From a bacterium 336/3 (GTDB taxonomy: Bacteria > Bacteroidota > Bacteroidia > Cytophagales > Thermonemataceae): a stretch of 64,000 nt of DNA. The notes under the pieces were generated by a model. It saw only the letters and a list, made by a program, of their open reading frames with translations. It ran no database searches and was not told the DNA's origin. Made by a program: the position numbers and the translations under genes. The DNA is taken from assembly GCA_001281695.1 (NCBI GenBank), contig LJIE01000001.1, positions 626,107 to 690,106 of the forward strand, written 5' to 3'. This document shows positions 5,952 through 20,894 of this stretch, one piece after another; positions within the stretch are counted from its first letter, which is position 1, and each line of letters opens with the position of its first letter.

Positions 5952-8342
5952 ATGTTTAAAAACTATTGGAAAATATCTTGGAGAAATTTACTAAAAAAGC
6001 CATTCTATACACTGATCAATATTTTAGGTTTGGCTATAGGAATGGCTGTAAGCTTACTCATTTTATTATATTTGGAAAAAGAGTTTTCTTATGATAGTAC
6101 TTGGGAAAAACCCATATTTCGTTTAGCTATTCAATATAAAACAGGTAAAGAAACTCGTAAAATTGCAGCAACAGAGCCTAACATTATTGCTACATTCCCA
6201 AAAGCATTTAAAGAAGTACAAAAAATAACAAGAATTTTGCCCACAGAAGGGACAATTGTTGCTTATCAAACAAAAAATAACTACTACAATGATATTTTTT
6301 TTGCTGATAGCTCATTCTTTGATATTTTCAATTATCAAGTTTTAAACGGCTCGATTAAAGGTGTTTTTGAGAATAAAGAAACCCCTGAAATCATACTGAC
6401 AAGTGAATTGGCTCAAGAAATTTTTGGTCAGGAGAACCCAATAGGAAAAAAAATACAACTCCGTACAACCAATGCCTTTAGTTATGATGGAGATTATACT
6501 GTAAAAGCGGTCATTCAAAATCCATATAAAACACATTTTTATTTTAAAGCTCTTATCTCATGGAATCATGAAGATAAGTTTGTTGGAGCTTCATGGGCTT
6601 ATACTTATTTCACATTTAAAGGTGATGTAAAGAAGGTTCGTAAAAATTGGGATGATTATTACAAAAATTACCTAAAACGTTATTTTCCCAATGAAGAAAT
6701 TTCTCTAAAACCTATTGTTCAACCCATTGAAAGCATACACCTGCAATCTCAACTCGACTCTGAAATATCTGCTAATGGAAATGAAAATTATTTATATCTA
6801 TTTTTCGGAATAGCCTTACTCATGATTACAGTTGCATGTATTAATTTTATCAATATTAGTACTGTTCGTTCTGTACAACGTATCAAAGAGTTTGGTATTC
6901 GTAAAATGCTGGGAGAGAATAAATTAGGAATTCTGATGCAATTGTTTATAGAAACAACAATACTTGTATTTATGGCATTTTGGGTTTCTTTATCATTTGC
7001 AGAACTTTTTTTCCCATTATTTAAAGAAGTATTAAACCAAGATTTATCTTTCAAAACACTCTATGAAAATAAATTCGTTATTTTTTGGATAGCTGTTTTT
7101 GTAAGTCTTACAGTTGTTTCAGGAGTTTATCCTATCTTTTATTTAACTAAAATACCAGCTCTCAATGCAATTAAAGGTATTGTTGAGAAAAAATATTATA
7201 GAGTATCTTTTAGAAAGACTCTGCTGGTTATTCAATTTGCTGTAACTTTAGTAATTATGGCAACAACATTGATGGTGACACGCCAGTTGTTGTACTTAAA
7301 AAGCAAAGATTTAGGTTTTGATAAAAAAGGTGTATTGGTGATACGACTGCCTAAAAATGAAGAAATTATAGAAAAACTTGATTCTCTGAAAAGTAAATTT
7401 ATGGAAAGTCCTGATATTTTTAAGGTAGCTAACGCTGCTGAAATGTTGGGAACAAACTTGATTTCTCAGTTCAGATTTGAGGTAGAACATCAAGGTAAAT
7501 ATAAAGAGGCTGTTATGGGTAGAATGTCAGTCAGTACAGATTTTATTGATGTTATGGGACTCGAAATAGTAGAGGGTAATAAATTTGAAGAAGCGGAAGA
7601 GCAAGAATATCAGCCTCTAATCATCAATGAAGCGACAGTCCAGTATCTAAAATGGAAAGACCCTATTGGTAAAAAGCTAATTATTAGTAGAGATGAAGAA
7701 GGAAACCCTTTGGTTGTTGGGCAAGTAGTTGGAGTTATTAAGAACTTCCATTTTAGCTCATTACATTCCAAAATAAACCCTTTGGTTCTGGTACAAAGTA
7801 ATCGGATAGGTAATTTGTTTTTGAGTATTGCTCCCAAACAAAAAAAAGAAGTAATTGAATATTTACATAAAATTTGGCAAGAGGAGCTTCCTGATGAGCC
7901 ATTTAATTATTTTTTCTTAAATGAAAATTATCAAAAACATTATATAGCAGAAGAAACATTGGCTAAGCTTTTGGTCTATTTTTCTTTACTAATGGTCTTG
8001 GTAGCTTCTTTAGGACTTTTAGGACTCTCTTTATTTGTTTCGGAGCTTCGCCTTAAAGAGATCGCCATTCGTAAAATGTTGGGAGCTGGCAAATGGTCAT
8101 TGATTTGGTTACTCTCCAAAGATTTTGTATACCTTATCTTTTTTGCTAATATCATTGCCATTCCAGTGGGTTATCACCTGATAAGTATATGGTTAAGAAA
8201 CTTCGCATATACAGCTACAATTGAATATCCTATATTTATTATTGCATTTATTCTAACACTTTTTGTAGCTCTTATGCCATTGTTGCTACAAGCTATTTTG
8301 AGAGTTTTTGTATCTCCTATTAAGGTTTTACAAGTTTCATAA
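5952..8342 (+). CDS. FtsX-family ABC transporter permease (MacB-like, two FtsX domains)
   Basis: About 796 residues from the ATG at 5952; a TTG at 5937 is less likely. A first helix (LINILGLAIGMAVSLLILLY) follows the family signature KISWRNLLKKPFYT. A large periplasmic MacB_PCD-like domain comes next, then an FtsX domain with three helices around residues 275-425 including VRSVQRIKEFGIRKMLG. A second periplasmic part and a second FtsX domain with RLKEIAIRKMLGAGKWS follow near the C-terminus. This eight-helix layout is that of Bacteroidota permeases for lipids, lipoproteins or peptides, or of mechanotransmission units. No ATPase gene is adjacent, so the partner must be elsewhere. The substrate is unknown. 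Confidence 0.87.
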   Translation: MFKNYWKISWRNLLKKPFYTLINILGLAIGMAVSLLILLYLEKEFSYDSTWEKPIFRLAIQYKTGKETRKIAATEPNIIATFPKAFKEVQKITRILPTEGTIVAYQTKNNYYNDIFFADSSFFDIFNYQVLNGSIKGVFENKETPEIILTSELAQEIFGQENPIGKKIQLRTTNAFSYDGDYTVKAVIQNPYKTHFYFKALISWNHEDKFVGASWAYTYFTFKGDVKKVRKNWDDYYKNYLKRYFPNEEISLKPIVQPIESIHLQSQLDSEISANGNENYLYLFFGIALLMITVACINFINISTVRSVQRIKEFGIRKMLGENKLGILMQLFIETTILVFMAFWVSLSFAELFFPLFKEVLNQDLSFKTLYENKFVIFWIAVFVSLTVVSGVYPIFYLTKIPALNAIKGIVEKKYYRVSFRKTLLVIQFAVTLVIMATTLMVTRQLLYLKSKDLGFDKKGVLVIRLPKNEEIIEKLDSLKSKFMESPDIFKVANAAEMLGTNLISQFRFEVEHQGKYKEAVMGRMSVSTDFIDVMGLEIVEGNKFEEAEEQEYQPLIINEATVQYLKWKDPIGKKLIISRDEEGNPLVVGQVVGVIKNFHFSSLHSKINPLVLVQSNRIGNLFLSIAPKQKKEVIEYLHKIWQEELPDEPFNYFFLNENYQKHYIAEETLAKLLVYFSLLMVLVASLGLLGLSLFVSELRLKEIAIRKMLGAGKWSLIWLLSKDFVYLIFFANIIAIPVGYHLISIWLRNFAYTATIEYPIFIIAFILTLFVALMPLLLQAILRVFVSPIKVLQVS

Positions 8343-8395
8343 TACTCAAACAATAAAAAAGTGTTTTTAGAGTTTTTGAATAAACTATTTATTTT

Positions 8396-9355
8396 ATGAA
8401 TGAATCTAATTTATTGCAAGTTGGGCTGGCTCAAATAGCTCCTGTTTGGCTTAATAAACTCAAAACTTTAGAAAAAATAAAAGAAGCAATTATAGAAGCT
8501 GCTCACAAAAAATGTGAGTTAGTAGTTTTTGGTGAAGGTTTACTCCCTGGATATCCTTTTTGGCTTGCCCTCACTAATGGAGCAGAATGGAATGCTTCCA
8601 TACAAAAAGAAATACATGCCCATTATATCCGAAATGCCATCCAAATAGAAACTAATGAACTTTCAGATGTTTGTAAGCTTGCTAAAGAACATAAAATCGC
8701 TATTTATTTAGGAATTATTGAAAGAGCTCATAATAGAGGAGGGCATAGTTTGTATTGCTCTTTGGTATATATCAATGAGTTTGGTGAAATAAAATCTGTA
8801 CATCGAAAATTGCAACCCACTTATGATGAGCGTCTTACATGGTCTCAAGGTGATGGAAATGGGTTGCAGGTACACCCACTCAAACAATTTACAGTAGGAG
8901 GGCTAAACTGTTGGGAAAACTGGATGCCTTTACCCCGAACAGCTCTATATGGTCTAGGTGAAAATTTACATATTGCTGTATGGCCTGGGAGCATTCGCAA
9001 TACACACGATATCACAAGATTTATAGCTAAAGAAGGTCGTTCTTTTGTAGTGTCAGTTTCAGCATTAATGAGAAAAGAAGATTTTCCTTTGGATACACCT
9101 CATATTGAAAAAATATTAGAAAATGCTCCTGATATACTCACTGATGGAGGTTCTTGTGTAGCTTCGCCAGATGGTGAATGGGTCTTAGAGCCTGTTGTAA
9201 ATCAGGAAGGTGTTTTTACAGCAATCTTAGATTTTAATAAAGTGTTAGAAGAAAGACAAAATTTTGATGCTGTGGGGCATTACTCACGTCCTGATGTGAC
9301 AAAGCTCATTGTAAACCGAGAAAGGCAGGCTATTGTACATTTTACTGAAAATTAA
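8396..9355 (+). CDS. Nitrilase-type carbon-nitrogen hydrolase
   Basis: A 319-residue nitrilase-superfamily enzyme with the Glu-Lys-Cys triad intact: E47 in FGEGLLPGYPFW, K138 in HRKLQPTYDE and C172 in LNCWENW. The context of each residue (GYPFW after Glu, PTYDERLTWSQGDG after Lys, CWENWMPL at Cys) is that of true nitrilases, which hydrolyse R-CN to acid and ammonia, not of amidases or N-carbamoylases. It is cytoplasmic. The substrate is not predictable. The DinB-like gene follows after 6 bases, so the two are probably co-transcribed. Confidence 0.85.
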   Translation: MNESNLLQVGLAQIAPVWLNKLKTLEKIKEAIIEAAHKKCELVVFGEGLLPGYPFWLALTNGAEWNASIQKEIHAHYIRNAIQIETNELSDVCKLAKEHKIAIYLGIIERAHNRGGHSLYCSLVYINEFGEIKSVHRKLQPTYDERLTWSQGDGNGLQVHPLKQFTVGGLNCWENWMPLPRTALYGLGENLHIAVWPGSIRNTHDITRFIAKEGRSFVVSVSALMRKEDFPLDTPHIEKILENAPDILTDGGSCVASPDGEWVLEPVVNQEGVFTAILDFNKVLEERQNFDAVGHYSRPDVTKLIVNRERQAIVHFTEN

Positions 9356-9361
9356 AAACTT

Positions 9362-9808
9362 ATGAATATTCAAACACTTCAAACTTTATTTCGAAGAGAT
9401 TTAGAAAAACTTAAATCGGAAATAGAACTTTATCAGAATGAGGCTACTATCTGGCTCATAGAACCAAATATTTCAAACTCAGCAGGGAATTTATGTTTGC
9501 ACTTAATAGGCAATTTGAACCATTTTATTGGGACTATTTTAGGAAAAACAGATTATGTAAGGAATAGAGAATTAGAATTCTCAGAAAAAAATGTGCCTAG
9601 AACCAAACTGACTGAACAGATTGAGAAAACCATAGAAGTTGTGGAGCAATCCTTATCAAAAGTGTCCGAAAATCAACTACAAGAAGAGTATCCTTTGGTT
9701 GTTTTGGGTAAAGCTACTTCTACACATTATTTTTTGTTTCACTTGATAGCTCATTTATCATATCATTTAGGTCAAATCAATTATCACCGAAGATTACTAG
9801 ATAAATAG
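9362..9808 (+). CDS. DinB/YfiT-like four-helix protein (DUF1572 type)
   Basis: A 148-residue protein with the DinB-superfamily pattern: one His in the second helix (LCLHLIGNLNHFIG) and a His cluster near the end (HLIAHLSYHLGQINYHRR) that would form the metal site. Members are small metal-binding four-helix bundles, some acting as thiol-dependent transferases or hydrolases; most have no known function. It follows the nitrilase closely and is the last (+) gene before the minus-strand accessory block. Confidence 0.75.
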   Translation: MNIQTLQTLFRRDLEKLKSEIELYQNEATIWLIEPNISNSAGNLCLHLIGNLNHFIGTILGKTDYVRNRELEFSEKNVPRTKLTEQIEKTIEVVEQSLSKVSENQLQEEYPLVVLGKATSTHYFLFHLIAHLSYHLGQINYHRRLLDK

Positions 9809-9864
9809 ATAAAAAATTTAGTTTTCTGCTACTGGTTATCAATTATATGAAGGAAGGGATTTTA

Positions 9865-9923
9865 CCCACTGAACTTCCTACAAAGCACAAAATACCTGCT
9901 TGTGTAGAGATGATGTTAGTGGG
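9865..9923. repeat. Long imperfect hairpin at a gene end, attC-like (candidate)
   Basis: The arms CCCACTGAAC..CTACAAAGCA (9865-9887) and TGCTTGTGTAG..GTTAGTGGG (9897-9923) are complementary with a few bulges around a 9-base centre. AAC and GTT sit near the outer ends, as in integron attC sites. It lies 35 bp after the stop of the DUF5367 gene, in the position of a cassette end. It could also be an unusual terminator; there is no strong T-run. Confidence 0.4.
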
Positions 9924-9957
9924 TTGTTGTTCTCTATTCCTTTTTTGGTTTATCGGT

Positions 9958-10341
9958 TCAGCTTCGTTTAATTTTAAAAAACCAATAAAAATACACTGTT
10001 ACAGTATTTATTGTAACTAGTAACCAAAATAGTGGAAATGTAAAAAAGCTTTCATAGCTACCGCCCTTTGGTATTTCTACAAATGGAACGGTAATTAAAG
10101 CATCAAGTATTATAGCCGTAACACTCATAATTGTTCCAGAAATAAGACCATGAACCTTGTTGCCATTTTTGTAGAAAATAGATGCCCCAAATAGTGCAAA
10201 TGGTATGATGAATATCGCTACAATGAGTGTCTGTTGATTCAATGAATCTTTAATTGTAGGGGTATAACCTAGAACGACGAATGTGATAAAAATAAATAGC
10301 CATATTAAGGCTCCTGTTAAAATTGCTCTAAAGTTTTTCAT
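9958..10341 (-). CDS. DUF5367-like four-helix membrane protein
   Basis: A 127-residue protein with four hydrophobic helices (about residues 8-26, 38-56, 66-84 and 100-120). It has the block ALITVPFVEIPKGGSYESFF between helices 3 and 4, which I associate with the DUF5367 family of Bacteroidota. Function is unknown. It is the last gene of a minus-strand set AraC regulator - NAD(P)H-binding protein - DUF5367, with 18 bases to the gene before it, so it is probably part of an AraC-controlled unit. Confidence 0.65.
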   Translation of the reverse strand: MKNFRAILTGALIWLFIFITFVVLGYTPTIKDSLNQQTLIVAIFIIPFALFGASIFYKNGNKVHGLISGTIMSVTAIILDALITVPFVEIPKGGSYESFFTFPLFWLLVTINTVTVYFYWFFKIKRS

Positions 10342-10359
10342 TTTATTTAGTAGTTTTGA

Positions 10360-10998
10360 TTAATAAGAAATACCTGTAATTTTACCTTGATAAGTGGTAG
10401 AAGTCAATTGAGTAACTAAGAAATCTGCTACATCTGCCTTTGAAATTTTAAGTTTTAAATTAGTATCTGTATATGGAAAACCATGCTTATAAATGCCAGT
10501 AAATGGTCCATTATCCATAGTGGCAGGTCTAATAATTGTCCAGTTTAAATTACTTTTTTTTATCAGACTTTCTTGTACGTGATGCTCTTTCAAGGTTTTC
10601 CTTAAAATAAATGGAATGATAAAGTATTTTGTAAAAAATGAAGCATTGTTCAACATCACAGCACTATCTCCAAATCCTAATGATGATTGGCATATCAAAC
10701 GAGATACACCATTTTCATTCATAGCTTTGATAATATTTTCTGTTCCAACAGACCGCAACTTTCCAGCCTTGAGAGCTGGTGCACCAAGGCAACAAATAAC
10801 TGCCTCTTGATTTTGCATTGCTGTTTGTAAAGAGGATAGTACCATGACATCACCTTGAATAACTTTTAGATTTGCATGAGAAATTTTAAAATTGTTGGGA
10901 TTACGAACAAATGCCGTTATATTATGTCCAAGGGCAAGAGCTTGTTTTACAACATATTGCCCAGTACCACCTGTCGCTCCGATAATGAGTAGTTTCAT
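10360..10998 (-). CDS. NAD(P)H-binding Rossmann protein (atypical SDR)
   Basis: About 212 residues from the ATG at 10998; a longer start at 11031 would add residues before the Rossmann fold. The N-terminus is LLIIGATGGTGQYV, the GxxGxxG motif of atypical short-chain dehydrogenases. Then come VIQGDVM, CCLGAPA, an active-site-like SSLGFG region and NWTIIRPATM. These features match NAD(P)H-binding proteins of the BVR-B/YwnB kind, which act as reductases or redox sensors. The YxxxK pair is absent. It lies 73 bases after the AraC gene and 18 bases before the DUF5367 gene. Confidence 0.78.
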   Translation of the reverse strand: MKLLIIGATGGTGQYVVKQALALGHNITAFVRNPNNFKISHANLKVIQGDVMVLSSLQTAMQNQEAVICCLGAPALKAGKLRSVGTENIIKAMNENGVSRLICQSSLGFGDSAVMLNNASFFTKYFIIPFILRKTLKEHHVQESLIKKSNLNWTIIRPATMDNGPFTGIYKHGFPYTDTNLKLKISKADVADFLVTQLTSTTYQGKITGISY

Positions 10999-11071
10999 AA
11001 TAAATTCTTTTTTGAATGAATAATGAAACAAAAATGCAGAGAATCTGGCTTAAGCGATTGTTTTAAAAGAA

Positions 11072-11950
11072 TTATGATTTGTTTGAAAAGAATTGTTGTC
11101 TGATTTCATTTGGTCGGACACCAAATTTGTTCTGAAAGGCATTAGAGAATGAACTTAAACTTTCATATCCAACAAACCAAGCCACCTCTTGTACAGTTTC
11201 GTTGGTAGTACTCAGCATTTCATAGGCTTTATTGAGACGTTCTTCCTGCAAAAACTTAAAAACAGGAACACCAAAAAGTTCTTTGAAATTTCTTTTGAGT
11301 TTGTTGTTATTAAGTCCGATAAGTTTAGATAGTTCACTTAAAGAAGGCGGACTTGAGATGTTATTTGCAATGATTTCTTTAGCCTTAAAAAGCTTTTCCT
11401 TATCTTTATTTGACACACTTTCTTTTTTATCGGAAGCAAGAAAGGCGAAAAAATGAGAGAGTAATTCTGTTATTTGGCTTTTTAAGAACATTCGTCTTGT
11501 GTTGCCTTTGTAATTAGTGGTTAATATTTTGTAAACAGCATTTTGCATGTTAGGTGTCATGTAAAACCTTGGACCTTCTACAAAGTCTGCCTTAGGGCTT
11601 AACAATTCTGGTAAAAAATCAGTAAAAATTTCCTGTTCTTCTTTGGGCAAATTTTGAAGTTTATTAAGTTTTGAAAAAATGCTTATAGATTGTAATGGTC
11701 TATTTGGACCAATTTTGTGAAAAAATTCTACTTTATTGTTGCCAAAAAAAGAAATAGCAATACCTGTTGTGTTGGTTATTATTTTTGTTTGATTTTGATG
11801 TTTAATTTCAAGCTCTACATTGCCAGAACCATAGAAAGCAAAACCTATAGCATCTCCATCAATGGCACATGATTGTACAATTGTTTTATCAGCGTTTGAT
11901 TGCTCAATTAATACTATGAAATTGTTAATTTCTATTATATCTGTTGTCAT
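11072..11950 (-). CDS. AraC-family transcriptional regulator
   Basis: A 292-residue protein with an N-terminal ligand/sensor half that I cannot assign. The C-terminal AraC DNA-binding domain (about residues 190-288) has helix-turn-helix one around SLSELSKLIGLNNNKLKRNF and helix-turn-helix two around VQEVAWFVGYESLSSFSNAF, then the family end FGVRPNEIRQQ. It is the first gene of the set leading to the NAD(P)H-binding and DUF5367 genes and may control them. Its start codon lies 7 bases from an attC-like hairpin, a close juxtaposition seen in cassette-like arrangements. Confidence 0.88.
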   Translation of the reverse strand: MTTDIIEINNFIVLIEQSNADKTIVQSCAIDGDAIGFAFYGSGNVELEIKHQNQTKIITNTTGIAISFFGNNKVEFFHKIGPNRPLQSISIFSKLNKLQNLPKEEQEIFTDFLPELLSPKADFVEGPRFYMTPNMQNAVYKILTTNYKGNTRRMFLKSQITELLSHFFAFLASDKKESVSNKDKEKLFKAKEIIANNISSPPSLSELSKLIGLNNNKLKRNFKELFGVPVFKFLQEERLNKAYEMLSTTNETVQEVAWFVGYESLSSFSNAFQNKFGVRPNEIRQQFFSNKS

Positions 11951-11956
11951 TTCGCT

Positions 11957-12069
11957 CCAACGTTTTGCAGTTTTTGGCGAAGTGGTAGAAATCGAAGTAC
12001 AAAATATTCAATCCAATAATTGTTGATGAATTTAGCACTAAACCCGCCATTTTGCCAAGCTGCTGTTAG
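11957..12069. repeat. attC-like imperfect inverted repeat between lipoprotein gene and AraC gene
   Basis: On the minus strand the stop codon of the lipoprotein gene is embedded in CTAACAGCAG, followed by CTTGGCAAAATGG. About 70 bases on, CCACTTCGCCAAAAACTGC and then CGTTGGAGCG occur. The two arms pair as GCAG..TTGGC.AA.TGG with a few bulges, and the ends carry TAAC and GTTGG, close to the R-boxes of integron attC sites. The AraC start codon follows at once. No integrase is in the window, so site identity is an inference. Confidence 0.45.
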
Positions 12070-12719
12070 TAGTTGTTTTTTATTTTATTTAAAGGAATCA
12101 TTATTTTATTTTCCCCAAACCATTCTCCCTCACCACCAACATAAACAATAAAATCGTTTTTAGATATTGTCCAAGTAATAACATAATTGCTCCCAGTTTT
12201 GTAAGCTAATAAATTTATATGTTTCTTATTTTTGATACCATACTTTTCAATATATGGAAAAAGCATCCTACGGTCAAAATTTGGTATTACTTGCTCTGGT
12301 TTGAGTCCTACAATTCCATTTTTTGATTTGTAACTTTGTTTTGGATTTATAACAACTGATTGATAAATAGTATCGGTTTTCAAATTTTCACGTGGTATTA
12401 AAGTGCGAAATTCAATGCTTAATATACTATCCGTTTTTAGTAAAATTTGATATTCTCCTGTAACTTCATCCTTTTTTATCTTCTTTTGTTCACAATTCTT
12501 TGCATAATATTCATGTTCAGGATATTCTTCCAAGACTTTATTTAGTCCAGACATTTTTTCTATATCTGCCAAGCCCTCTATTTCAGGATATGAAACTTTA
12601 ATTTGGCAATTATTTTTTGAAATGATTTTAGTTCGATTTATTATTTCATAATCATCATTTTTTGATTCACATCCATAAATAAAAAAGATAATTATAAATA
12701 TGTAACTCAGTGGTTTCAT
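12066..12719 (-). CDS. Lipoprotein of unknown function
   Basis: About 217 residues from the ATG at 12719, chosen because it gives a normal lipoprotein signal: KP, a hydrophobic stretch (YIFIIIFFIY) and the lipobox GC at about residue 17. The mature part is rich in Lys, Asn, Tyr and Ile, with no motif I recognise; it ends near YVGGEGEWFGENKI. It sits alone between a repeated leader element (12721-12750) and an attC-like hairpin that overlaps its stop codon. This layout resembles a single-gene cassette. No function can be given. Confidence 0.6.
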   Translation of the reverse strand: MKPLSYIFIIIFFIYGCESKNDDYEIINRTKIISKNNCQIKVSYPEIEGLADIEKMSGLNKVLEEYPEHEYYAKNCEQKKIKKDEVTGEYQILLKTDSILSIEFRTLIPRENLKTDTIYQSVVINPKQSYKSKNGIVGLKPEQVIPNFDRRMLFPYIEKYGIKNKKHINLLAYKTGSNYVITWTISKNDFIVYVGGEGEWFGENKIMIPLNKIKNNY

Positions 12720-12720
12720 A

Positions 12721-12750
12721 AAATAACTGCTAACACATAAATATACACAA
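12721..12750 (-). repeat. Leader element shared with the serine hydrolase gene at 14109 (copy 1)
   Basis: Read on the minus strand, TATATTTATG, two bases, TAGCAGT, one base, ATT. The same string with four or five mismatches occurs at 14135-14170. This copy lies directly before the ATG of the lipoprotein. It may hold a promoter -7 element (TATATTTA) plus a conserved leader. Confidence 0.5.
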
Positions 12751-12839
12751 TATATCAAACTTCATGGATATATCAAATTGTCAATATTTTATATGAAAAA
12801 CCATACAAAATACGAAAGTGCTAATTAAAATTATACAAA

Positions 12840-12867
12840 CAAAAAATCCCTGAAATTTCAGGGATTT
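12840..12867 (-). terminator. Rho-independent terminator of the serine hydrolase gene
   Basis: A perfect palindrome with arms AAATCCCTGAAA and TTTCAGGGATTT (12844-12867). On the minus strand it is followed by TTTTTTG-type T-rich sequence. It lies 70 bases past the stop of the gene at 12937-14109. Confidence 0.75.
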
Positions 12868-12936
12868 ATAGAAAAGATTTTTCCCAATTATATTATTTTT
12901 TAGTGTTAAATTATAGCGAGTGGTTCTTTTTCATTT

Positions 12937-14109
12937 TCAATATGCTTTTGCTAATGACGTGAAAATATTCCACCAGTCTGCTCTTCCTTCTTTCTTTCCA
13001 AGTCGAACAATTATCAATTTTTTTGTTGGATTAACATAAATGAACTGTCCCAATATACCTTCTGCCATAAAATCTTTGTCTGTGCTAAGCTTTATTTTTT
13101 CTTTTGTTGGGTTTTTTAAATTATAATTTTCTTTACGGAAATTATATAGAGCTGTAGGTAACCACCATTGATATTTATAAAATACTGCACCACCGTTTGT
13201 AGTATCAACTTCGGTTGATTCTTCAACCCATTTCTGAGAAATAATTTGTTTGTCGTTCCAGTTGCCATTATTTAGGTAAAGCCGTCCTATTTTGGCAAAG
13301 TCTTTTGCTCTTGCATTTAAACAGCAAAAAGTTTTCTCTAACCCATTCTTTTTTCTGTCAATGCTCCAAGATGCATCATATTCCATTCCAAGTGGTGTCC
13401 ATAGCTTTTCTTGTAAATATGAAGTAATTGTTTTACCCTTTAATGAACGCTCTAAAACTAAACCTAATAGTTGCGTATTGCCACTTACATATTCAAACTG
13501 TTTACCGGGTTCTCTTTTTAACTTCATTTTTCTAATTTCTTTTCTAAGATTAAGTCCATAATAAAATGAAGCTGCATCACCAAAAGGATTTATATAGCTT
13601 TCATTAAACTTAATACCAGAGGTCATTTGTAAAAGGTGTTTAATAGTTACTTTATCAAAACCATTTTTTTTTAATTCTGGAATATAGTTAGTGATTGGCT
13701 CGTCAACGGACTTTATTAAACCTTCGTCTATAGCACAACCAATTAAAATTGATGTAACAGATTTTGCCATTGAGAATGATGGAACAATACTTTGTTCGTC
13801 ATACCCTTTAAAATATTTTTCATATTGGATTGTATCGTTTCTAATAATTAAAAAGGCTACTGTCTTGTTATCATCAAGATATCTATCAAATGGAACACCG
13901 TTTAATTCTTTTGGAAATTTCCCTGAATTAGTAGTTTGAAAATTGAAAGGTGAAGTGTTGGCATTTAATGGTCTTGACTGAAATTTTTTATGGTCTTTTA
14001 TATCTGCAAAGTTGTAAAAAACAAATCGTCCCAACTGACAAGAAGTCAATAGTGTTGAAGCAATAATCATTAAAAATCCAAATCTAGGTATTTTAATTTG
14101 TCGTCCCAT
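12937..14109 (-). CDS. Serine hydrolase, beta-lactamase/penicillin-binding fold, lipoprotein
   Basis: A 390-residue class C beta-lactamase-like protein. It begins with a lipoprotein signal ending LTSC (C24), so it is probably anchored in the envelope. The nucleophile motif is S113-M-A-K116 in SFSMAKSVTS, and the second motif is around Y207 (FEYVSGN), where Tyr is kept but the usual YxN pattern is YVS. Members include D-aminopeptidases, esterases and 6-aminohexanoate dimer hydrolases; the substrate is unknown. It is one of three such genes within 5.5 kb. A promoter-like TTTTTG-N20-TATATTTA lies before it and a terminator after it. Confidence 0.8.
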   Translation of the reverse strand: MGRQIKIPRFGFLMIIASTLLTSCQLGRFVFYNFADIKDHKKFQSRPLNANTSPFNFQTTNSGKFPKELNGVPFDRYLDDNKTVAFLIIRNDTIQYEKYFKGYDEQSIVPSFSMAKSVTSILIGCAIDEGLIKSVDEPITNYIPELKKNGFDKVTIKHLLQMTSGIKFNESYINPFGDAASFYYGLNLRKEIRKMKLKREPGKQFEYVSGNTQLLGLVLERSLKGKTITSYLQEKLWTPLGMEYDASWSIDRKKNGLEKTFCCLNARAKDFAKIGRLYLNNGNWNDKQIISQKWVEESTEVDTTNGGAVFYKYQWWLPTALYNFRKENYNLKNPTKEKIKLSTDKDFMAEGILGQFIYVNPTKKLIIVRLGKKEGRADWWNIFTSLAKAY

Positions 14110-14134
14110 ATTTTTTATTTTGTTTTTTGTCCTG

Positions 14135-14170
14135 CTCTACAATGACTGCTACCTCATAAATATATCCAAT
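14135..14170 (-). repeat. Leader element shared with the lipoprotein gene at 12719 (copy 2)
   Basis: Minus strand: TATATTTATG, two bases, TAGCAGT, one base, ATT, about 23 of 27 bases identical to copy 1 at 12721-12750. It lies 26 bp before the ATG of the serine hydrolase at 14109. Confidence 0.5.
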
Positions 14171-14190
14171 CTCTCTCTTTTTGTCAAAAA
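14157..14190 (-). promoter_or_regulatory. Candidate promoter of the serine hydrolase at 14109
   Basis: Minus strand: TTTTTG (14190-14185), 20 bp, then TATATTTA (14164-14157). It matches the Bacteroidota promoter layout with the final G of TAnnTTTG replaced by A. It overlaps the repeated leader element. Confidence 0.45.
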
Positions 14191-14244
14191 ATAATATTAA
14201 AATCTACTTTTATCTGAGTATTACAATAATTAATGTTGGCGTTA

Positions 14245-15306
14245 CTATTTTACTAAGTTACTATTAATGACTATTTCTCTTATTTTTGATTCAAAATAGT
14301 AATGTACTTTACTATCAACATCATAACAATTTTGAAGAATAATGACATCTACATCTTTAGAAGGAATATAAAACTTAAATGATATAAAGCCAAGTCCTTT
14401 GCCACTGTGTCCTAAGTACCTAACATGAGTTTTATCACTTATTCTAAGTCCATAACCATAGCCAACTTTTTCATTACCAAAAGAGTCGTGTTGATTGGTA
14501 ATTTCGTAATTGGTCATTAACTTATAAGTTTCTGGTTTTAGTATTTTACCCTTATGAAGTTTACTATCCCAAGTATGTAAGTCAATGGCATTGGATATCA
14601 TACCTCCAGCAGGGATAAAGTTTGCCCAAGATTCAATGGTATAATTGAGTCTTTTGAAATTAAATAAGCTAACGGAATCTTTAGAAACCCAATATCCATT
14701 AATAAGTCCAAGATTAGGTTTATCTAATTCATAACAATAGCTATTGCTCATTTTCAACTCCTTGAAAAGACTATTGGCTACTTCTATAAATGTTTTACCT
14801 GTAACTTTTTCAATAATTGGTCTTAACAAACCATAACCAGAGTTGCTATAGTAATAATCTGTTCCAGGTTTGAAAGACAATGGTTTGGTAATATCTGTAA
14901 TTCCAGCAGTGTTGTTAAGCAGATGATGAACAGTGACTGTATCTGCCCAAGTTTGTTTGAAATCAGGCAAGTATTTCCTGATAGGGGTATGAAGGTCTAT
15001 CTTCCCTTTTTCAACCTCTCTTAAAATTATAACAGCTGTAATTTGTTTGCTATTAGACTGAATTCTGAAGTTGTCCTTTAATGTAAAAGGTGTTTTAGCT
15101 TCAAAATTTGAATAACCATATGTTTTCAAATACTTTGTTTTCCCTTTTTTTGTTATCCAAATAATGCCATTAAAACTTCTTGGATTTTTTATTTGTATTA
15201 AACTATCAATTTTGGCAGAATAGTCATCTTTCAACTGTCCATAACTATCACAGAAAATAAAAATGGATAAGAAAATAAAAGATAAAAATTTAGAATTTTT
15301 TTTCAT
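14245..15306 (-). CDS. Serine hydrolase, beta-lactamase fold, secreted
   Basis: A 353-residue protein with a signal peptide (hydrophobic FLSFIFLSIFIF, probable cleavage near SYGQ at 21-24). The motifs of the serine beta-lactamase/DD-peptidase fold are S84-N-S-K87, Y153-S-N155 in YYYSNSGYG, and a late GHSGKG in place of KTG. The protein is probably periplasmic. It could cleave peptides or esters; a real beta-lactamase role is not supported. The gene lies between another serine hydrolase and a LytS/LytTR pair, all on the minus strand. It is separated from the regulator gene by 125 bases that hold a nuoG-like remnant. Confidence 0.82.
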   Translation of the reverse strand: MKKNSKFLSFIFLSIFIFCDSYGQLKDDYSAKIDSLIQIKNPRSFNGIIWITKKGKTKYLKTYGYSNFEAKTPFTLKDNFRIQSNSKQITAVIILREVEKGKIDLHTPIRKYLPDFKQTWADTVTVHHLLNNTAGITDITKPLSFKPGTDYYYSNSGYGLLRPIIEKVTGKTFIEVANSLFKELKMSNSYCYELDKPNLGLINGYWVSKDSVSLFNFKRLNYTIESWANFIPAGGMISNAIDLHTWDSKLHKGKILKPETYKLMTNYEITNQHDSFGNEKVGYGYGLRISDKTHVRYLGHSGKGLGFISFKFYIPSKDVDVIILQNCYDVDSKVHYYFESKIREIVINSNLVK

Positions 15307-15369
15307 GAAAATACTACTTTAAGACTATTTGTGAGAATTATAAACGATATGAGAAGTGTTTTATTATTC

Positions 15370-15421
15370 AATAAAATTTACTTGTTGTGAATTTATATGA
15401 CTCTTCATATATCAATACAGA
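15370..15421 (-). repeat. Remnant copy of the nuoG 3' end (direct repeat, left copy)
   Basis: Bases 15370-15396 match 18534-18561 inside nuoG at 26 of 28 positions (core TTTACTTGTTGTGA). In the nuoG frame, the minus strand here reads SVLIYEESYKFTTSKFY-stop. NuoG ends SSLTYEES, then RLKNK, then LTTSKFLL. Both copies have the same orientation and bracket a 3.1-kb block, as left by an insertion at the nuoG 3' end or by a recombination. Confidence 0.6.
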
Positions 15422-15431
15422 TTTTTTTTGA

Positions 15432-16106
15432 TCATTTCTCAAGTTGTTTAAAAACTATTTGAGAAAACGAGTCACTAATAGGTATTTCATGTTCATCAAT
15501 AAAAATCATGTTACGGTCATAACGTTTTACTTTATCTAAATTCACAATGAAAGACTTATGTGTTTGAATAAATGTTTCTGGTAATTTTTCTATGGCTTGT
15601 TGTATCGTTTCTCTTCCTATTACTTTTTCATTTTCGCAATAATAAGTCATATAATTGCCATCTTTTTCCAAATACATTATTTTATCTGTTGTTATTCTAA
15701 ATGTTTCAAATCCGCTTTTTACGGAAATCCAACTTATATGAGTATCCTTCTTTTGAACTTTCTTAGGGAGTACCTTACTAATCGCTTGTGTAAATCTATC
15801 CAAACTGATGGGTTTTAGTAGGTAATCAACAGCCTCTACTTCATAGCTTTCAACAGCATACTCAGAATAAGCTGTTGTAAAAATTATTTTCATGTTTTTG
15901 GGAATCATTTTAGATAAAGAAATTCCAGAAATATGTGGCATATTGATGTCAAGAAAAATAATATCTACAGGCTCTTTAGAAATGTATTCAAAAGCCTTCA
16001 AACCATTTCTAAATGTAGCAACCAATTCAATAGTGCCAAAATGTTCCAAATAGTCTTTCAATAATTCAATAGCCTTGGGTTCATCATCTACTATAATCGC
16101 TCTCAT
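15432..16106 (-). CDS. LytTR-family response regulator
   Basis: A 224-residue protein. The receiver domain (1-115) has the acidic pair D7/D8, the phosphoacceptor D53 in IIFLDINMP and the Thr/Lys of FTTAYSEYA and LLKPI. The LytTR DNA-binding domain (about 125-222) has MYLEKDGNYMTYY and FIQTHKSFIVNLDKVKRYDR. LytTR domains bind paired direct repeats on one DNA face. Its start overlaps the kinase stop by 4 bases, so they form a two-gene operon. Three serine hydrolase genes surround the pair and are the obvious candidate targets. Confidence 0.93.
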   Translation of the reverse strand: MRAIIVDDEPKAIELLKDYLEHFGTIELVATFRNGLKAFEYISKEPVDIIFLDINMPHISGISLSKMIPKNMKIIFTTAYSEYAVESYEVEAVDYLLKPISLDRFTQAISKVLPKKVQKKDTHISWISVKSGFETFRITTDKIMYLEKDGNYMTYYCENEKVIGRETIQQAIEKLPETFIQTHKSFIVNLDKVKRYDRNMIFIDEHEIPISDSFSQIVFKQLEK

Positions 16107-17125
16107 TGGGTTTGAATGTTTAAGGTTACAATAAAATTCTCGTTTTGCTTAATAAGTAGTTGATGTTTGTTCGGGTAAATTAACTCTAATCGTTTACGAG
16201 TTGATTCAATACCTGTATTGTTACCCATTAAGTTTGGCATCATCACTTTATTTCTAATCTCAAAACTTATATTATTTTCTACACTCAAATCAAAATATAT
16301 ATCAATTACACTTGTTTGTTCAGGTTCTGTTCCATATTTAAATGCATTCTCAACAAAAGTGATATATAGACCAGGTTCTATCTTTTGGTTAATAAACTTC
16401 CCTTCTATATTCAAATTTACAACTATTTCATCTTCTGTAAATCGTAATTTTTGTAGTTCAATATAATTTTCTAGAAATGAAATCTCTTTTTGAATACTCA
16501 CTTTTTCAGATTGTGTTTCTTCAATTACATAACGCAACAACTGTGAAAGCCTCTCAAATGAATTTACCAACTTGAGATTTTCATGGGGTTTTACCATTGA
16601 GAGCAGATTGTTTAAGGCATTAAATAAAAAATGAGGTTGTAATTGATTACGAAGTAAAGTGAGTTCTGTTTGCTTTTTATCAAGGATTAGTTGTTGTTGT
16701 CGTTCATGATTTCGATATAATAACTTTGTAATGCTGTATGCAACTGAAATGGTAAAATAAAATGTAACTATTCCAAAAGCAATTGCTGATGGTAATGGTG
16801 GATGTTTGAAGCCAAAATCAAAGACAGTTATGAAGTAAGCAAACAAAATCCCCGTTCCAAAGATTAATAAAACAAAGAATACAGATTTTTTTTTGAGTTC
16901 ATGATGTTGCAATAACCATACTGTTGTATAAAAGATAATGGCTCCAATAGTTATGCAACTTAAAATTTGTAATATCAGCCCATTATTGCGAATAGTATGG
17001 ATTTTCTCTACACCTTCTACAATTCTCATATACTTCATCTGCACAGAAAAACTATTGGTAAGTAACCAGCCAGTAGTTAACCAAAAAATACTATGTAAAA
17101 TGATTTCTATAAAACGATTTTTCAT
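16103..17125 (-). CDS. LytS/YehU-type sensor histidine kinase
   Basis: A 340-residue kinase with four hydrophobic segments in the first 135 residues. The His_kinase (PF06580-type) motif LLRNQLQPHFLFNALNNLL has the phosphorylated H165, and a degenerate HATPase end contains FVENAFKYG. There is no recognisable extracellular sensor domain, so sensing is probably through the membrane part. It pairs with the overlapping LytTR regulator. The serine hydrolase at 17318 is divergently transcribed from a shared 192-bp region, which contains the inverted repeat ATCAC-N8-GTGAT (17175-17192). Confidence 0.92.
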   Translation of the reverse strand: MKNRFIEIILHSIFWLTTGWLLTNSFSVQMKYMRIVEGVEKIHTIRNNGLILQILSCITIGAIIFYTTVWLLQHHELKKKSVFFVLLIFGTGILFAYFITVFDFGFKHPPLPSAIAFGIVTFYFTISVAYSITKLLYRNHERQQQLILDKKQTELTLLRNQLQPHFLFNALNNLLSMVKPHENLKLVNSFERLSQLLRYVIEETQSEKVSIQKEISFLENYIELQKLRFTEDEIVVNLNIEGKFINQKIEPGLYITFVENAFKYGTEPEQTSVIDIYFDLSVENNISFEIRNKVMMPNLMGNNTGIESTRKRLELIYPNKHQLLIKQNENFIVTLNIQTQ

Positions 17126-17317
17126 GTTGTAAAAATAGTAATCTTATTTTTTTCTATGTAAAAGATGTTACCAAATCACCTTTTGATGTGATGAAAAGCT
17201 TAGAAAGATTAAAATCACTTTCTTTTTGGGTTTTATCCTTTCATATAGGGGAATGGTAACTCTGTTTCAAAAGAGAAAAAAAACATAGATACTTTTGAAT
17301 AAAAATTATAAAATAAA

Positions 17318-18454
17318 ATGAAAAAGCAAGCTTCAAAATTCTTTAGTCTTGCATTACTGGCAATCAGTTTGACTAGTAATGCACAAACAAATCAAGTCAG
17401 CGAAAAACAAATTGCGGATATTAACAATCTCATTGAGGATTTGTCTAATAAAGATGCATTTTCGGGGACAGTACTCATTGCTAAAGGTGATAAAATTATC
17501 TATCAAAAAGCTGTGGGTCTATCTAATAAAGAGCAAAACATGAAAAATAACATAGAAACCAAATTTAATATAGGCTCTATGAATAAAATGTTTACAGGTA
17601 TTGCAATAGCTCAATTGGCAGAAAAAAATAAATTACGCTATTCTGATAAAATAACAAGCTATTTGCCAAATCTTCCAAAAAAAATATTTGGTGACATAAC
17701 AATAGAGCAATTACTTACACATTCTTCTGGTACAGGCGATTTTTTTAGATTTCCAAGATTCGAGCAAATAGCAGATACTGCGAAAACAATCACTACCTAT
17801 GTAAATATTGGTCTTGAAGAGCCACTTTTATTTAAACCAGGAACAAAAGTCAGTTATAGCAATTATGGTTATATTTTATTAGGTGCTATTATTGAATCAG
17901 TATCAAAAATGAGCTATTATGACTATGTACGTCAAAACATTTTTGTAATAGCCAATATGAAAAATACTGATAGTTATGAAAGAAATAAAATACATGAAAA
18001 TTTTGCTATTGGTTATGCCAATCCACCACAAATGCCCAATGAAACACCTAAACTAAATAATAGAGAAAATAATACAAAAATACTAGAATTAAAAGGGAAT
18101 TCGGCGGGTGGAGGATATTCTACAGCAGTTGACTTTCATAAATTTTCACAAGCTTTATTAGCTAATAAATTAATAACATCAAAAACTTTAGGAATAGTTA
18201 CAACAGGGAAGGTAATATTATTTCCTGGAATGAAAGAAAGAAATTTACCAGAAATAAAATATGGTTACGGTTTTGGAGAGTCGTACAAAAATAATATTAG
18301 AATTATTGGACATACAGGTGGAGCACCTGGTGTAGATGCAGCAATGGAGATTTATCCAGATCTAGGATATACAGTTGTTGTTTTATCTAATTATGACAGA
18401 GCTACAATGCCAATAATGAAGTTTATTCAAGATGTTATTACACAAAATAAATAA
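17318..18454 (+). CDS. Serine hydrolase, beta-lactamase fold, secreted
   Basis: A 378-residue protein with a clear signal peptide (MKKQASKFFSLALLAI..SNAQ, cleavage near residue 23). It has S87-M-N-K90 in IGSMNKMFTG, Y180-S-N182 in VSYSNYGY and GHTGGAPG near the end as the third motif. It is probably periplasmic. This is the most canonical of the three related hydrolases here. It is transcribed away from the LytS/LytTR pair and lies inside the block flanked by nuoG 3'-end copies. Target regulation by that pair is likely from context but unproven. Confidence 0.85.
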   Translation: MKKQASKFFSLALLAISLTSNAQTNQVSEKQIADINNLIEDLSNKDAFSGTVLIAKGDKIIYQKAVGLSNKEQNMKNNIETKFNIGSMNKMFTGIAIAQLAEKNKLRYSDKITSYLPNLPKKIFGDITIEQLLTHSSGTGDFFRFPRFEQIADTAKTITTYVNIGLEEPLLFKPGTKVSYSNYGYILLGAIIESVSKMSYYDYVRQNIFVIANMKNTDSYERNKIHENFAIGYANPPQMPNETPKLNNRENNTKILELKGNSAGGGYSTAVDFHKFSQALLANKLITSKTLGIVTTGKVILFPGMKERNLPEIKYGYGFGESYKNNIRIIGHTGGAPGVDAAMEIYPDLGYTVVVLSNYDRATMPIMKFIQDVITQNK

Positions 18455-18485
18455 AAGAATACGAAGTGTTAAAAGTTTTAAATAT

Positions 18486-18509
18486 AAAAGCCCTGAATTC
18501 AGGGCTTTT
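18486..18509. terminator. Bidirectional terminator
   Basis: A perfect 24-bp palindrome with arms AAAAGCCCTGAA and TTCAGGGCTTTT. T-rich sequence lies on both sides, between the convergent serine hydrolase (+) and nuoG (-). Confidence 0.85.
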
Positions 18510-18511
18510 GG

Positions 18512-19594
18512 TTATTTTTTATCTTTATCGTTTAATAAAAATTTACTTGTTGTGAGTTTATTTTTCAAGCGAGATTCTTCATAAGTTAAACTGGAATCTT
18601 CTCTGGCATCATTGATTTTTTTGTATTCTTTGGCTGCTTGCTTAAAGCCAAAATCAGGGATAACCGTTTTTACACGCTTGTTTTGCATCATTACAGAGTG
18701 TCTACCTTGATCTGCAATACCCTCAATTGTCCAGTCAGAAGTTTGTTTTTTATCGAAACGGCAGGTATTACAGATAAATTCTTCGAGTTCCCCATAATGA
18801 TCTTTTCTACCTGTAACTCTTATAACTTCTTTTCCCTGATACCAAAGTGTTACTTTTCCAGAACATTTATCACAATCTCTGTGTGCATATACAGGTTTTG
18901 TAAACCATACACGACTCTTAAATCGGAAAGTTTTATCAGTTAAAGCACCTACAGGACAAACATCTATCACATTGCCCGAAAAATCATTATCAATAGCTTC
19001 GGCAATATAAGTACTGATTTCAGCTGCATCACCTCTGTTCAAAACTCCATGTACACGACCATTTGTAATTTGGTCTGCTGTGAATACACAACGATAACAC
19101 AAAATACAGCGAGTCATGTGGAGCTGGATTTTATCTCCAATGTCTATTTTATCAAAAGTTCTACGTTCAAACTCATAACGAGTAGCTTGTTTACCATGCT
19201 GATAACCCAAATCTTGTAAATGACATTCACCTGCTTGGTCGCAAATAGGGCAATCCAGAGGGTGATTAATCAATAAGAATTCAACTACGCCATCTCTTGC
19301 TTTTTGTACTTCCTCATTGACAGAGTTTTCTACAACCATTCCATCCATGACTGTCGTAATACACGAAGGAACGAGTTTAGGCATAGGGCGTGGGTCTTTG
19401 GTAGAACCTTGTGTAACTTTTACAATACAAGTACGACATTTACCACCTGAACCTTTCAGTTTTGTATAATAGCACATGGCTGGAGGTACAACTTCTCCAC
19501 CAATTTTTCGGGCTGCTTGCAAAATGGTAGTACCAGGCTCTACCTCAATGGTAACATTATCTATCGTAACTTTCAGAAGTGTGGGCTGTTCCAT
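18512..19594 (-). CDS. nuoG: NADH-quinone oxidoreductase subunit G, short form
   Basis: About 360 residues from the ATG at 19594 (MEQPTLLKV); upstream in-frame codons encode no plausible sequence. The N-terminal 2Fe-2S ferredoxin domain has C41, C53, C56 and C77. Then comes the His/Cys 4Fe-4S motif in HPLDCPICDQAGEC, two further cysteine clusters (CILCYRC, CPVGAL) and CDKC/CNTC. The large molybdopterin-like C-terminal domain of proteobacterial NuoG is missing, as is usual in Bacteroidota. It carries electrons in the peripheral arm of complex I. It is far from nuoI-N at 28-34 kb and follows hemW. Its last codons are duplicated at 15370-15421. Confidence 0.9.
   Translation of the reverse strand: MEQPTLLKVTIDNVTIEVEPGTTILQAARKIGGEVVPPAMCYYTKLKGSGGKCRTCIVKVTQGSTKDPRPMPKLVPSCITTVMDGMVVENSVNEEVQKARDGVVEFLLINHPLDCPICDQAGECHLQDLGYQHGKQATRYEFERRTFDKIDIGDKIQLHMTRCILCYRCVFTADQITNGRVHGVLNRGDAAEISTYIAEAIDNDFSGNVIDVCPVGALTDKTFRFKSRVWFTKPVYAHRDCDKCSGKVTLWYQGKEVIRVTGRKDHYGELEEFICNTCRFDKKQTSDWTIEGIADQGRHSVMMQNKRVKTVIPDFGFKQAAKEYKKINDAREDSSLTYEESRLKNKLTTSKFLLNDKDKK
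18534..18595 (-). repeat. Direct repeat, right copy: the end of nuoG itself
   Basis: This is the in-gene partner of the remnant at 15370-15421, at 26 of 28 identical bases in the core and in the same orientation. A 9-base, in-frame difference separates the two conserved parts. It marks the right edge of a block holding the LytS/LytTR pair and one serine hydrolase. Confidence 0.6.
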
Positions 19595-19763
19595 TCGTAT
19601 CTCTATTTTGAATGATTGCAAAATAAGTGTCTCATACCTCAAAACGTTTTGAGTAGAGTAAGTGTTTAAAAGTTTTGTCAATTTAAAGAAGATAGACAAA
19701 ACTACCAAAATAACTTAGGTTTAGTTGTAGAAATTTGAATATAAGTGGCTGTAAAACAGTGTT

Positions 19764-20894
19764 CTAAACTAGAAACAAATCAGAAGCTATTTGGTCTGCA
19801 AAAAATTTACCTTTGGAAGTAAGTTTAAACCCAATAGGGGAATTTTCTAGTAAGCCTTGACTTACATATTTCTCAAAAATATTTTTTTGCTTAGTTTCAA
19901 ACATTTGATGAGGAGCAATTTGCAAAACTCTTTCCCATGTACACCCCCATTGCGTCCTGAGTCCTGTAAGTAGATAGTCATTGAGTCTATCTTGCCACGA
20001 AAGCTCTTCTATTTCAAATGGAATAACTTGTTTTTCAATAGATTCAATGTATTTTGTATTATTACTAACATTATACTGTCTTGAAATATGATTGTATGAA
20101 TGTGCAGAAGGACCTATACCTAAATATTCGCCATCTTTCCAATAATTGCTGTTGTGGCGGGAATATGCTCCATTTTTTGCAAAATTTGAAATTTCATAAT
20201 GTTCAAAACTTGCACTTTGAAGTGTATCCATCAGTATTTGAAATTGCTCTGCAGCAAAACCATCATCAATGGGTGGCATGAATCCTTTCTGTAAACGACT
20301 GCCAAACACAGTTTTTGGTTCAATGGTCAAACTATAAGCCGAAATATGCGAAACGCCTAATGCAATGGCTTTTTCCAAATCTTTTTTCCAAATCAAATGA
20401 CTACTTGCAGGAATCGCATAAATTAAATCTATACTGATATTAGAAATCCCTTCATTTTGAGCCAAATGAACACAATTTTCAGCTTCTTGGCTGTTATGAG
20501 CTCTATGCAAAAACTGAAGATGGTTTTCTTCAAAACTCTGAATACCAATGCTTAAACGATTAATACCCAAATTTTTAAATATTTGTATATTCTCTAGGTT
20601 TAAATCATCTGGATTCGCCTCTAATGTAATTTCGGTGTGGCTGTCCCAAGTATAAATCTTACTAATTTGTTCAAAAGTTTTCTCAAGTTCTTTCTGAGAA
20701 AGCAAAGAAGGTGTGCCACCTCCAAAATAAATTGAATTTAAGTGTTTTCCTTTTAGATAATCCTGCTGAAATAAAATTTCTTGACCAATAGCATCCACCA
20801 ATTTTGATTTTAAACTAGTATTAGTACTGAAATGGAAATCGCAGTAATGACATGCTTGCTTACAAAATGGAATATGAATATAAAGAGCAGACAT
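19764..20894 (-). CDS. hemW: Radical SAM protein HemW (coproporphyrinogen III oxidase-like)
   Basis: A 376-residue protein starting MSALYIHIPFC. The radical-SAM cysteines are C11, C15 and C18 in CKQACHYCDF, the HemN/HemW type with Phe after CxYCD. Then come FGGGTPSLL (SAM binding), EANPDDL, RLSIGIQSF and GIGPSAHSY, and a C-terminal HemN domain. The four-residue N-terminal stretch before the cluster and the length fit HemW, a heme chaperone, better than HemN. It lies 6 bases after the sensor kinase gene, so it is probably on the same transcript. nuoG, 169 bases downstream, also needs redox cofactors, but a link is speculative. Confidence 0.85.
   Translation of the reverse strand: MSALYIHIPFCKQACHYCDFHFSTNTSLKSKLVDAIGQEILFQQDYLKGKHLNSIYFGGGTPSLLSQKELEKTFEQISKIYTWDSHTEITLEANPDDLNLENIQIFKNLGINRLSIGIQSFEENHLQFLHRAHNSQEAENCVHLAQNEGISNISIDLIYAIPASSHLIWKKDLEKAIALGVSHISAYSLTIEPKTVFGSRLQKGFMPPIDDGFAAEQFQILMDTLQSASFEHYEISNFAKNGAYSRHNSNYWKDGEYLGIGPSAHSYNHISRQYNVSNNTKYIESIEKQVIPFEIEELSWQDRLNDYLLTGLRTQWGCTWERVLQIAPHQMFETKQKNIFEKYVSQGLLENSPIGFKLTSKGKFFADQIASDLFLV

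Follow-up and report, generated by a model that had tools for sequence, protein, structure and literature searches.

Foreign DNA bordering a chromosomal gene is described, in the sources closest to our case, in two settings. The dusA islands are genomic islands integrated in a protein-coding gene; there the gene borders the foreign DNA, a direct repeat lies at both edges, and the integrase sits at the gene's 5′ end (PMC4482086). In homology-facilitated illegitimate recombination (HFIR), one side of the foreign DNA is joined through homology, the other usually through a microhomology of 3–10 bp; HFIR usually deletes target DNA, which counts against invoking it here, and most clones inspected in an E. 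coli test instead had part of the target gene duplicated, being single-crossover products (PMC3240628). A further source concerns duplications of 100–900 kb and is only loosely related (PMC3784515).

How does the present locus compare? In the window, the whole stretch of 64,000 nucleotides that was analysed, a small regulatory block lies between the intact 3′ end of nuoG and a remnant of that end. Like the dusA islands (PMC4482086), it combines a protein gene bordering what is very probably foreign DNA with a direct repeat at both edges; unlike them, it has no integrase among the ORFs scanned, measures only 3 kb, and occupies no recurring site. Like the HFIR and single-crossover products (PMC3240628), it may consist of foreign DNA joined by homology on one side and microhomology on the other, and part of the target gene is duplicated; unlike them, it is seen as an end product alone, with no matching deletion seen. 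The features are as follows.

15360–15434, minus strand: nuoG 3′-end remnant of about 75 bases, with a 9-base in-frame gap and nothing that corresponds to the nuoG stop codon (alignments, shuffles)
15432–16106, minus strand: LytTR response regulator gene, whose stop codon is the edge of similarity to other genomes (Pfam, alignments)
16103–17125, minus strand: LytS-type histidine kinase gene, PF06580 (Pfam, homologues)
17126–17317, no strand assigned: divergent intergenic region, the presumed control region, about 74% identical to that of genome G065
17318–18454, plus strand: serine hydrolase gene, PF00144 (Pfam, homologues)
18485–18510, plus strand: palindromic terminator-like stem between the hydrolase gene and nuoG, followed by a plus-strand T-run (1 found, 1.2 expected in shuffles)
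18512–19708, minus strand: nuoG, intact, short-form NADH-quinone oxidoreductase subunit G (longest ORF from 19708; protein used from 19600)
18524–18613, minus strand: 3′ part of nuoG with a counterpart in the remnant (local alignment to the remnant)

The 3′ End of nuoG Is Present Twice

An earlier note, made from the letters of the window, had claimed that two copies of the nuoG 3′ end, in the same orientation, bracket the block. They are where it placed them: when about 600 bases on each side of the module are compared, 15360–15396 matches 18524–18561 over 38 columns at 86.8% identity (E = 3.7e-7), with an ungapped 24-nt core in which one base differs. The nuoG end reaches a local score of 49 at 15.3 kb, the next best in the window on both strands being 37; none of 20 Markov-random sequences of 64 kb, scanned on one strand, scores above 33. 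A 22-base core, allowing up to 3 mismatches, matches twice in the window where shuffles lead one to expect 0.01; in the 4.7 Mb genome it is exact at these two places only, with one 3-mismatch match elsewhere and none for the backwards pattern used as control. The decisive evidence lies outside the core: the match continues upstream in the nuoG frame (NDQKKSVLIYEESYK versus INDAREDSSLTYEESRLKNK), with a protein score that 0 of 19,858 control stretches reach.

Chance similarity in AT-rich DNA has two points in its favour. The same upstream extension is weak as DNA (80 of 4,958 controls reach it), and when the whole 64 kb is compared with itself, the pair ranks no higher than joint third by score among direct repeats (E = 0.005), two other repeats scoring equal; this modest rank is due to the AT-richness of the sequence. 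Against the in-frame score, the shuffle expectation and the distance to the next best match, these points carry so little that chance is refuted for practical purposes, and the duplication is real.

Homology begins at about 15360, reaches as far as the lytTR stop codon (15432–15434) and ends 9 bases before the nuoG stop. The 9-base in-frame gap that had been noticed between the copies is genuine, and it was the remnant that lost these bases, since the genus mates G001 and G002 have the full form of nuoG; an extra 1-nt gap follows TTSKF, and the remnant is not a gene. Its core is better conserved than its 5′ part (2 of 25 positions differ versus 9 of 24; P = 0.018). In the 5′ part, 6 of 8 residues match nuoG while only 15 of 24 bases do, a pattern with P = 0.0007–0.0014 if all changes arose by decay of the remnant, and one that is expected if two nuoG ends diverged while functional. 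With four of the nine differences taken as silent changes on the nuoG side, P rises to 0.05, which leaves the case for a donor nuoG weak. The pattern is thus a hint, not proof, that two nuoG ends met at this locus after a period of divergence in which both were still functional.

Two simpler origins of the remnant were rejected. It is not native sequence following lytTR: the corresponding stretches at seven other loci score 15–23 against the remnant, nuoG 49 (scored against the nuoG end, the same stretches reach 16–30). Nor was the whole block duplicated in tandem: the hydrolase gene past the remnant (14245–15306, minus strand) is reversed relative to the nuoG end, and its product is only 31% identical to the block hydrolase. 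Just past the remnant, at 12937–15306, lie two further PF00144 serine hydrolase genes, making three of the family within 5.5 kb.

A Regulatory Module of Patchy Distribution

The contents of the block are as had been read from the open reading frames: Pfam finds a PF06580 kinase, a regulator with Response_reg and LytTR domains, and a PF00144 serine hydrolase. Against the NCBIfam models of named beta-lactamases, the last stays far under the cut-offs, its best score being 72 of 415 bits, and it is therefore not given that name. The divergent intergenic region (17126–17317) aligns with those of G065, G084 and G489 and contains conserved blocks around TGATGAAA, CACTTTCTTT and TACTTTTG, which are candidates for a LytTR operator and a Bacteroidota-type promoter. 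Judging solely by conserved gene order, its presumed role is to respond to a signal from the envelope and to control the neighbouring hydrolase of the module. An Rfam scan of 12–20 kb gave zero matches. Elsewhere in the same genome (L163, G000:C1:2118001-2137900, positions 7810–13360), a LytTR/LytS pair faces a row of three divergently oriented serine hydrolase genes; the layout is the same, and the hydrolases, 24–32% identical to that of the window, are distant paralogues.

Close relatives of the module are rare and scattered. Among 241 genomes from the order, 10 have the kinase (E ≤ 1e-40), its own included, with the best matches, at 74%, in G065 and G084; the hydrolase (E ≤ 1e-50) occurs in 4 of the 241, again with its own. 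At these thresholds, both are absent from the seven other genomes of the family (G001–G007, one of them 81% complete). At the level of the class, the kinase (E ≤ 1e-60) is found in 5 of 395 genomes, its own among them. Weaker hydrolase homologues are present in all 8 family genomes, so the absence holds for this hydrolase subfamily.

The nearest relatives lie far away. G065 and G084 belong to other families and also carry the trio in divergent arrangement; identities of hydrolase, kinase and LytTR regulator are 68, 73 and 85% to G065 and 72, 64 and 79% to G084. In G489 the hydrolase is 71% identical, the kinase matches in two pieces (69 and 49%), and so does the regulator (89 and 76%). HemW, by comparison, is 58–60% identical between this genome and its genus mates, and 53, 50 and 45% identical to G065, G084 and G489; nuoG is 67% identical to that of G084. 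At 64–85%, the module thus resembles its counterparts in distant families more than an ordinary protein resembles its counterpart in a genus mate. Composition does not clearly set the block apart (29.4% G+C; neighbouring stretches 28.9, 32.5 and 33.7%). From its relatives and their distribution, the block between the nuoG copies is very probably transferred DNA; among the origins that the earlier note had listed, a transferred segment is well supported, while an element integrating at the 3′ end of a gene is not demonstrated.

Divergent trios of the same kind were examined at seven other loci (G065, G084, G105, G489, G485, G601 and G556), a set that leaves out six weaker kinase matches of 31–40% (G049, G059, G119, G178, G202 and G215). 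They vary in detail: in G084 two ORFs separate the hydrolase gene from that of the kinase, and a small one lies between the kinase and regulator genes; in G489 the frames of kinase and regulator are broken. A second copy in G105 (L161), an eighth locus, is a broken kinase/LytTR pair without a hydrolase, and G197 has a hydrolase of 38% identity without an adjacent kinase/regulator pair. None of the other module loci adjoins nuoG. Kinase relatives occur on 21 plasmids, every one below 60% identity; on viral contigs, 15 pattern stretches were found, with no LytTR relative and no nuoG core. A literature search combining LytTR, serine hydrolase and histidine kinase in Bacteroidetes yielded, in the texts as accessible, hydrolase classification only.

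The Edges of the Block

Where does the module end? DNA similarity to G065 covers positions 15434–18464 of the window, from the lytTR stop codon to 10 bases past the hydrolase gene, and similarity to G489 covers 15450–18454; the genes flanking the module in both genomes differ from those here. The regulator retains the C-terminal end of its G065 and G084 homologues, and on this side similarity to other genomes stops at the lytTR stop codon, where the nuoG remnant starts. Non-coding DNA would drop out of alignments at such divergence, so a sharp edge alone proves little; the telling point is that the edge of the module coincides with the remnant. On the other side, the hydrolase gene and the nuoG stop lie 57 bases apart, with the terminator-like stem in between.

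Flanking direct repeats on the same strand were sought at 8 module loci, within about 600 bases outside each module end (800 on one side in G105). They are strong at two, and of unrelated kinds: the nuoG end in the window, and in G105 (E = 1.7e-16) a repeat that is not a gene end and recurs at 4 places in its genome, plus further related copies. G065 has a match of 24 bases (E = 0.001), 315 bases past the lytTR stop; at the other five loci E is at least 0.05. With strong repeats at only 2 of 8 loci, a rule that the module always carries a duplicated gene end is unsupported.

Other features were seen around these loci. The G084 locus is flanked by an AT-rich inverted match (68 columns, 70.6%, E = 4.5e-5); a tRNA-Gly/Leu/Gly cluster (L159, 16765–17141) lies about 157 bases from one end of its module, and two tRNA-Val genes (L159, 7228–7477) lie on the other side. 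In G485, a short ORF directly after the lytTR stop codon (L169, 1581–1943) has a motif that makes it read like the end of a putative IS630-type transposase.

nuoG and Its Neighbourhood

The nuoG next to the block is the single nuoG in the genome. Its top NCBIfam match is TIGR01973 (NuoG), at 289.5 of 470 bits a partial profile match below the cut-off; HemW, encoded beside it, is above its own. Gene order differs strongly inside the genus. Here nuoG adjoins hemW (18512–20894); in G001 and G002, where the nuoG neighbourhood is complete, nuoG has other neighbours and shows no synteny, and next to hemW another gene occupies the place that nuoG takes here. In G003, the third genus mate, the contig breaks off inside nuoG. 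The changed neighbours of nuoG and hemW in G001 and G002 indicate that the region has been rearranged in further ways too. Neither an empty site nor nuoG followed by the module was found among the genomes examined. Since synteny at nuoG is lost in two genus mates and the contig is broken in the third, we infer the event here and do not polarise it directly.

How May the Module Have Reached nuoG?

On balance we favour, by a modest preference, an imported 3.0-kb module joined to the nuoG end by recombination without an integrase, displacing the resident nuoG end. The module, with its hydrolase gene and divergent kinase and LytTR genes, would have come from another Bacteroidota lineage, on a linear fragment or a circle that bore a nuoG end beside it. 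On one side, homologous recombination inside nuoG would have left an intact gene; on the other, at the lytTR stop codon, an illegitimate join, or a single crossover of the circle, would have connected the module to the resident nuoG about 33 codons ahead of its stop. The resident 3′ end would thereby have been displaced and then have decayed into the remnant. This route would need general recombination and no integrase, and either HFIR or a single crossover would explain at once why the gene is intact, why foreign DNA lies beside it and why its end is copied. AATGAT is common to nuoG and the lytTR/remnant junction, with an offset of 3 bases between the two (P about 0.003 for a motif chosen after seeing the sequence). 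What is observed is that the nuoG end is duplicated, that the module is patchily distributed and that its edge coincides with the remnant; which way the transfer went, that the donor DNA carried a nuoG end, and how the DNA recombined, we infer.

If, instead, nuoG or its end was duplicated in the genome first and the module later entered the second copy, most of which was lost in the process, the same final structure would result, and the loss of synteny with the genus mates attests that rearrangements did occur here. This order of events is unlikely: two separate steps would be needed, the join would have to fall by coincidence exactly at the stop codon of lytTR, and the genome has only one nuoG, the remainder of a second copy having left no trace. 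Similarly doubtful is a decayed or trans-mobilised integrative element whose attachment site is the nuoG 3′ end and whose att sites are the two copies, its integrase being lost or encoded elsewhere. A direct repeat of the nuoG 3′ end at both block edges is as expected of elements that integrate at gene 3′ ends, and so is the arrangement of an intact gene on one side and a gene-end copy, with its 24-base core, on the other. The earlier note saw no integrase, and indeed there is none among the 18 ORFs between 5.9 and 29.3 kb scanned with Pfam; a tyrosine-recombinase profile has 11 matches in the genome and none in the window. Those 11 stretches could supply a recombinase from elsewhere, but they say little, as the profile finds matches in 14 of 14 control genomes. 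The other module loci are not at nuoG, 6 of the 8 loci tested have no strong flanking repeat, and no viral relative was found. A site-specific element has geometry alone in its favour. A literature search found no genomic island with nuoG as integration site.

Might the trio behave like a cassette that a trans-acting recombinase has spread among Bacteroidota, with the nuoG end as a secondary site of that machinery? We consider this highly improbable. What brings it to mind is G105, in which direct repeats, each an imperfect palindrome, flank a related trio; the stop codon of lytTR there belongs to one of these repeats. These repeats are about 130–170 bases long, start like GCTAACAA and end like AACGTTGGC, and stand head to tail between the genes of L160 (3198–3346, 6156–6282, 7497–7665 and 11607–11750; a second type at 1770–1934 and 12176–12330); others are in L187 (466–598, 3775–3911 and 12195–12320). 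They seem to resemble integron attC sites. Searches of the integron literature, in the texts as accessible, met no description of them. The integron-integrase profile TIGR02249 is above its cut-off in 0 of 6 genomes; it gives matches in 14 of 14 controls and is therefore uninformative as to integrons.

Implications

The locus is real and is explained in outline, and the phenomenon is of a known kind. It resembles the trace that a small regulatory module would leave on entering a chromosome without an integrase, the respiratory gene nuoG apparently having stayed intact because its end was duplicated. Remnants of gene ends at the edges of foreign blocks can be counted across genomes, which would give the frequency of such events. 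For the organism, the gain is modest: one additional two-component system and its presumed target enzyme.
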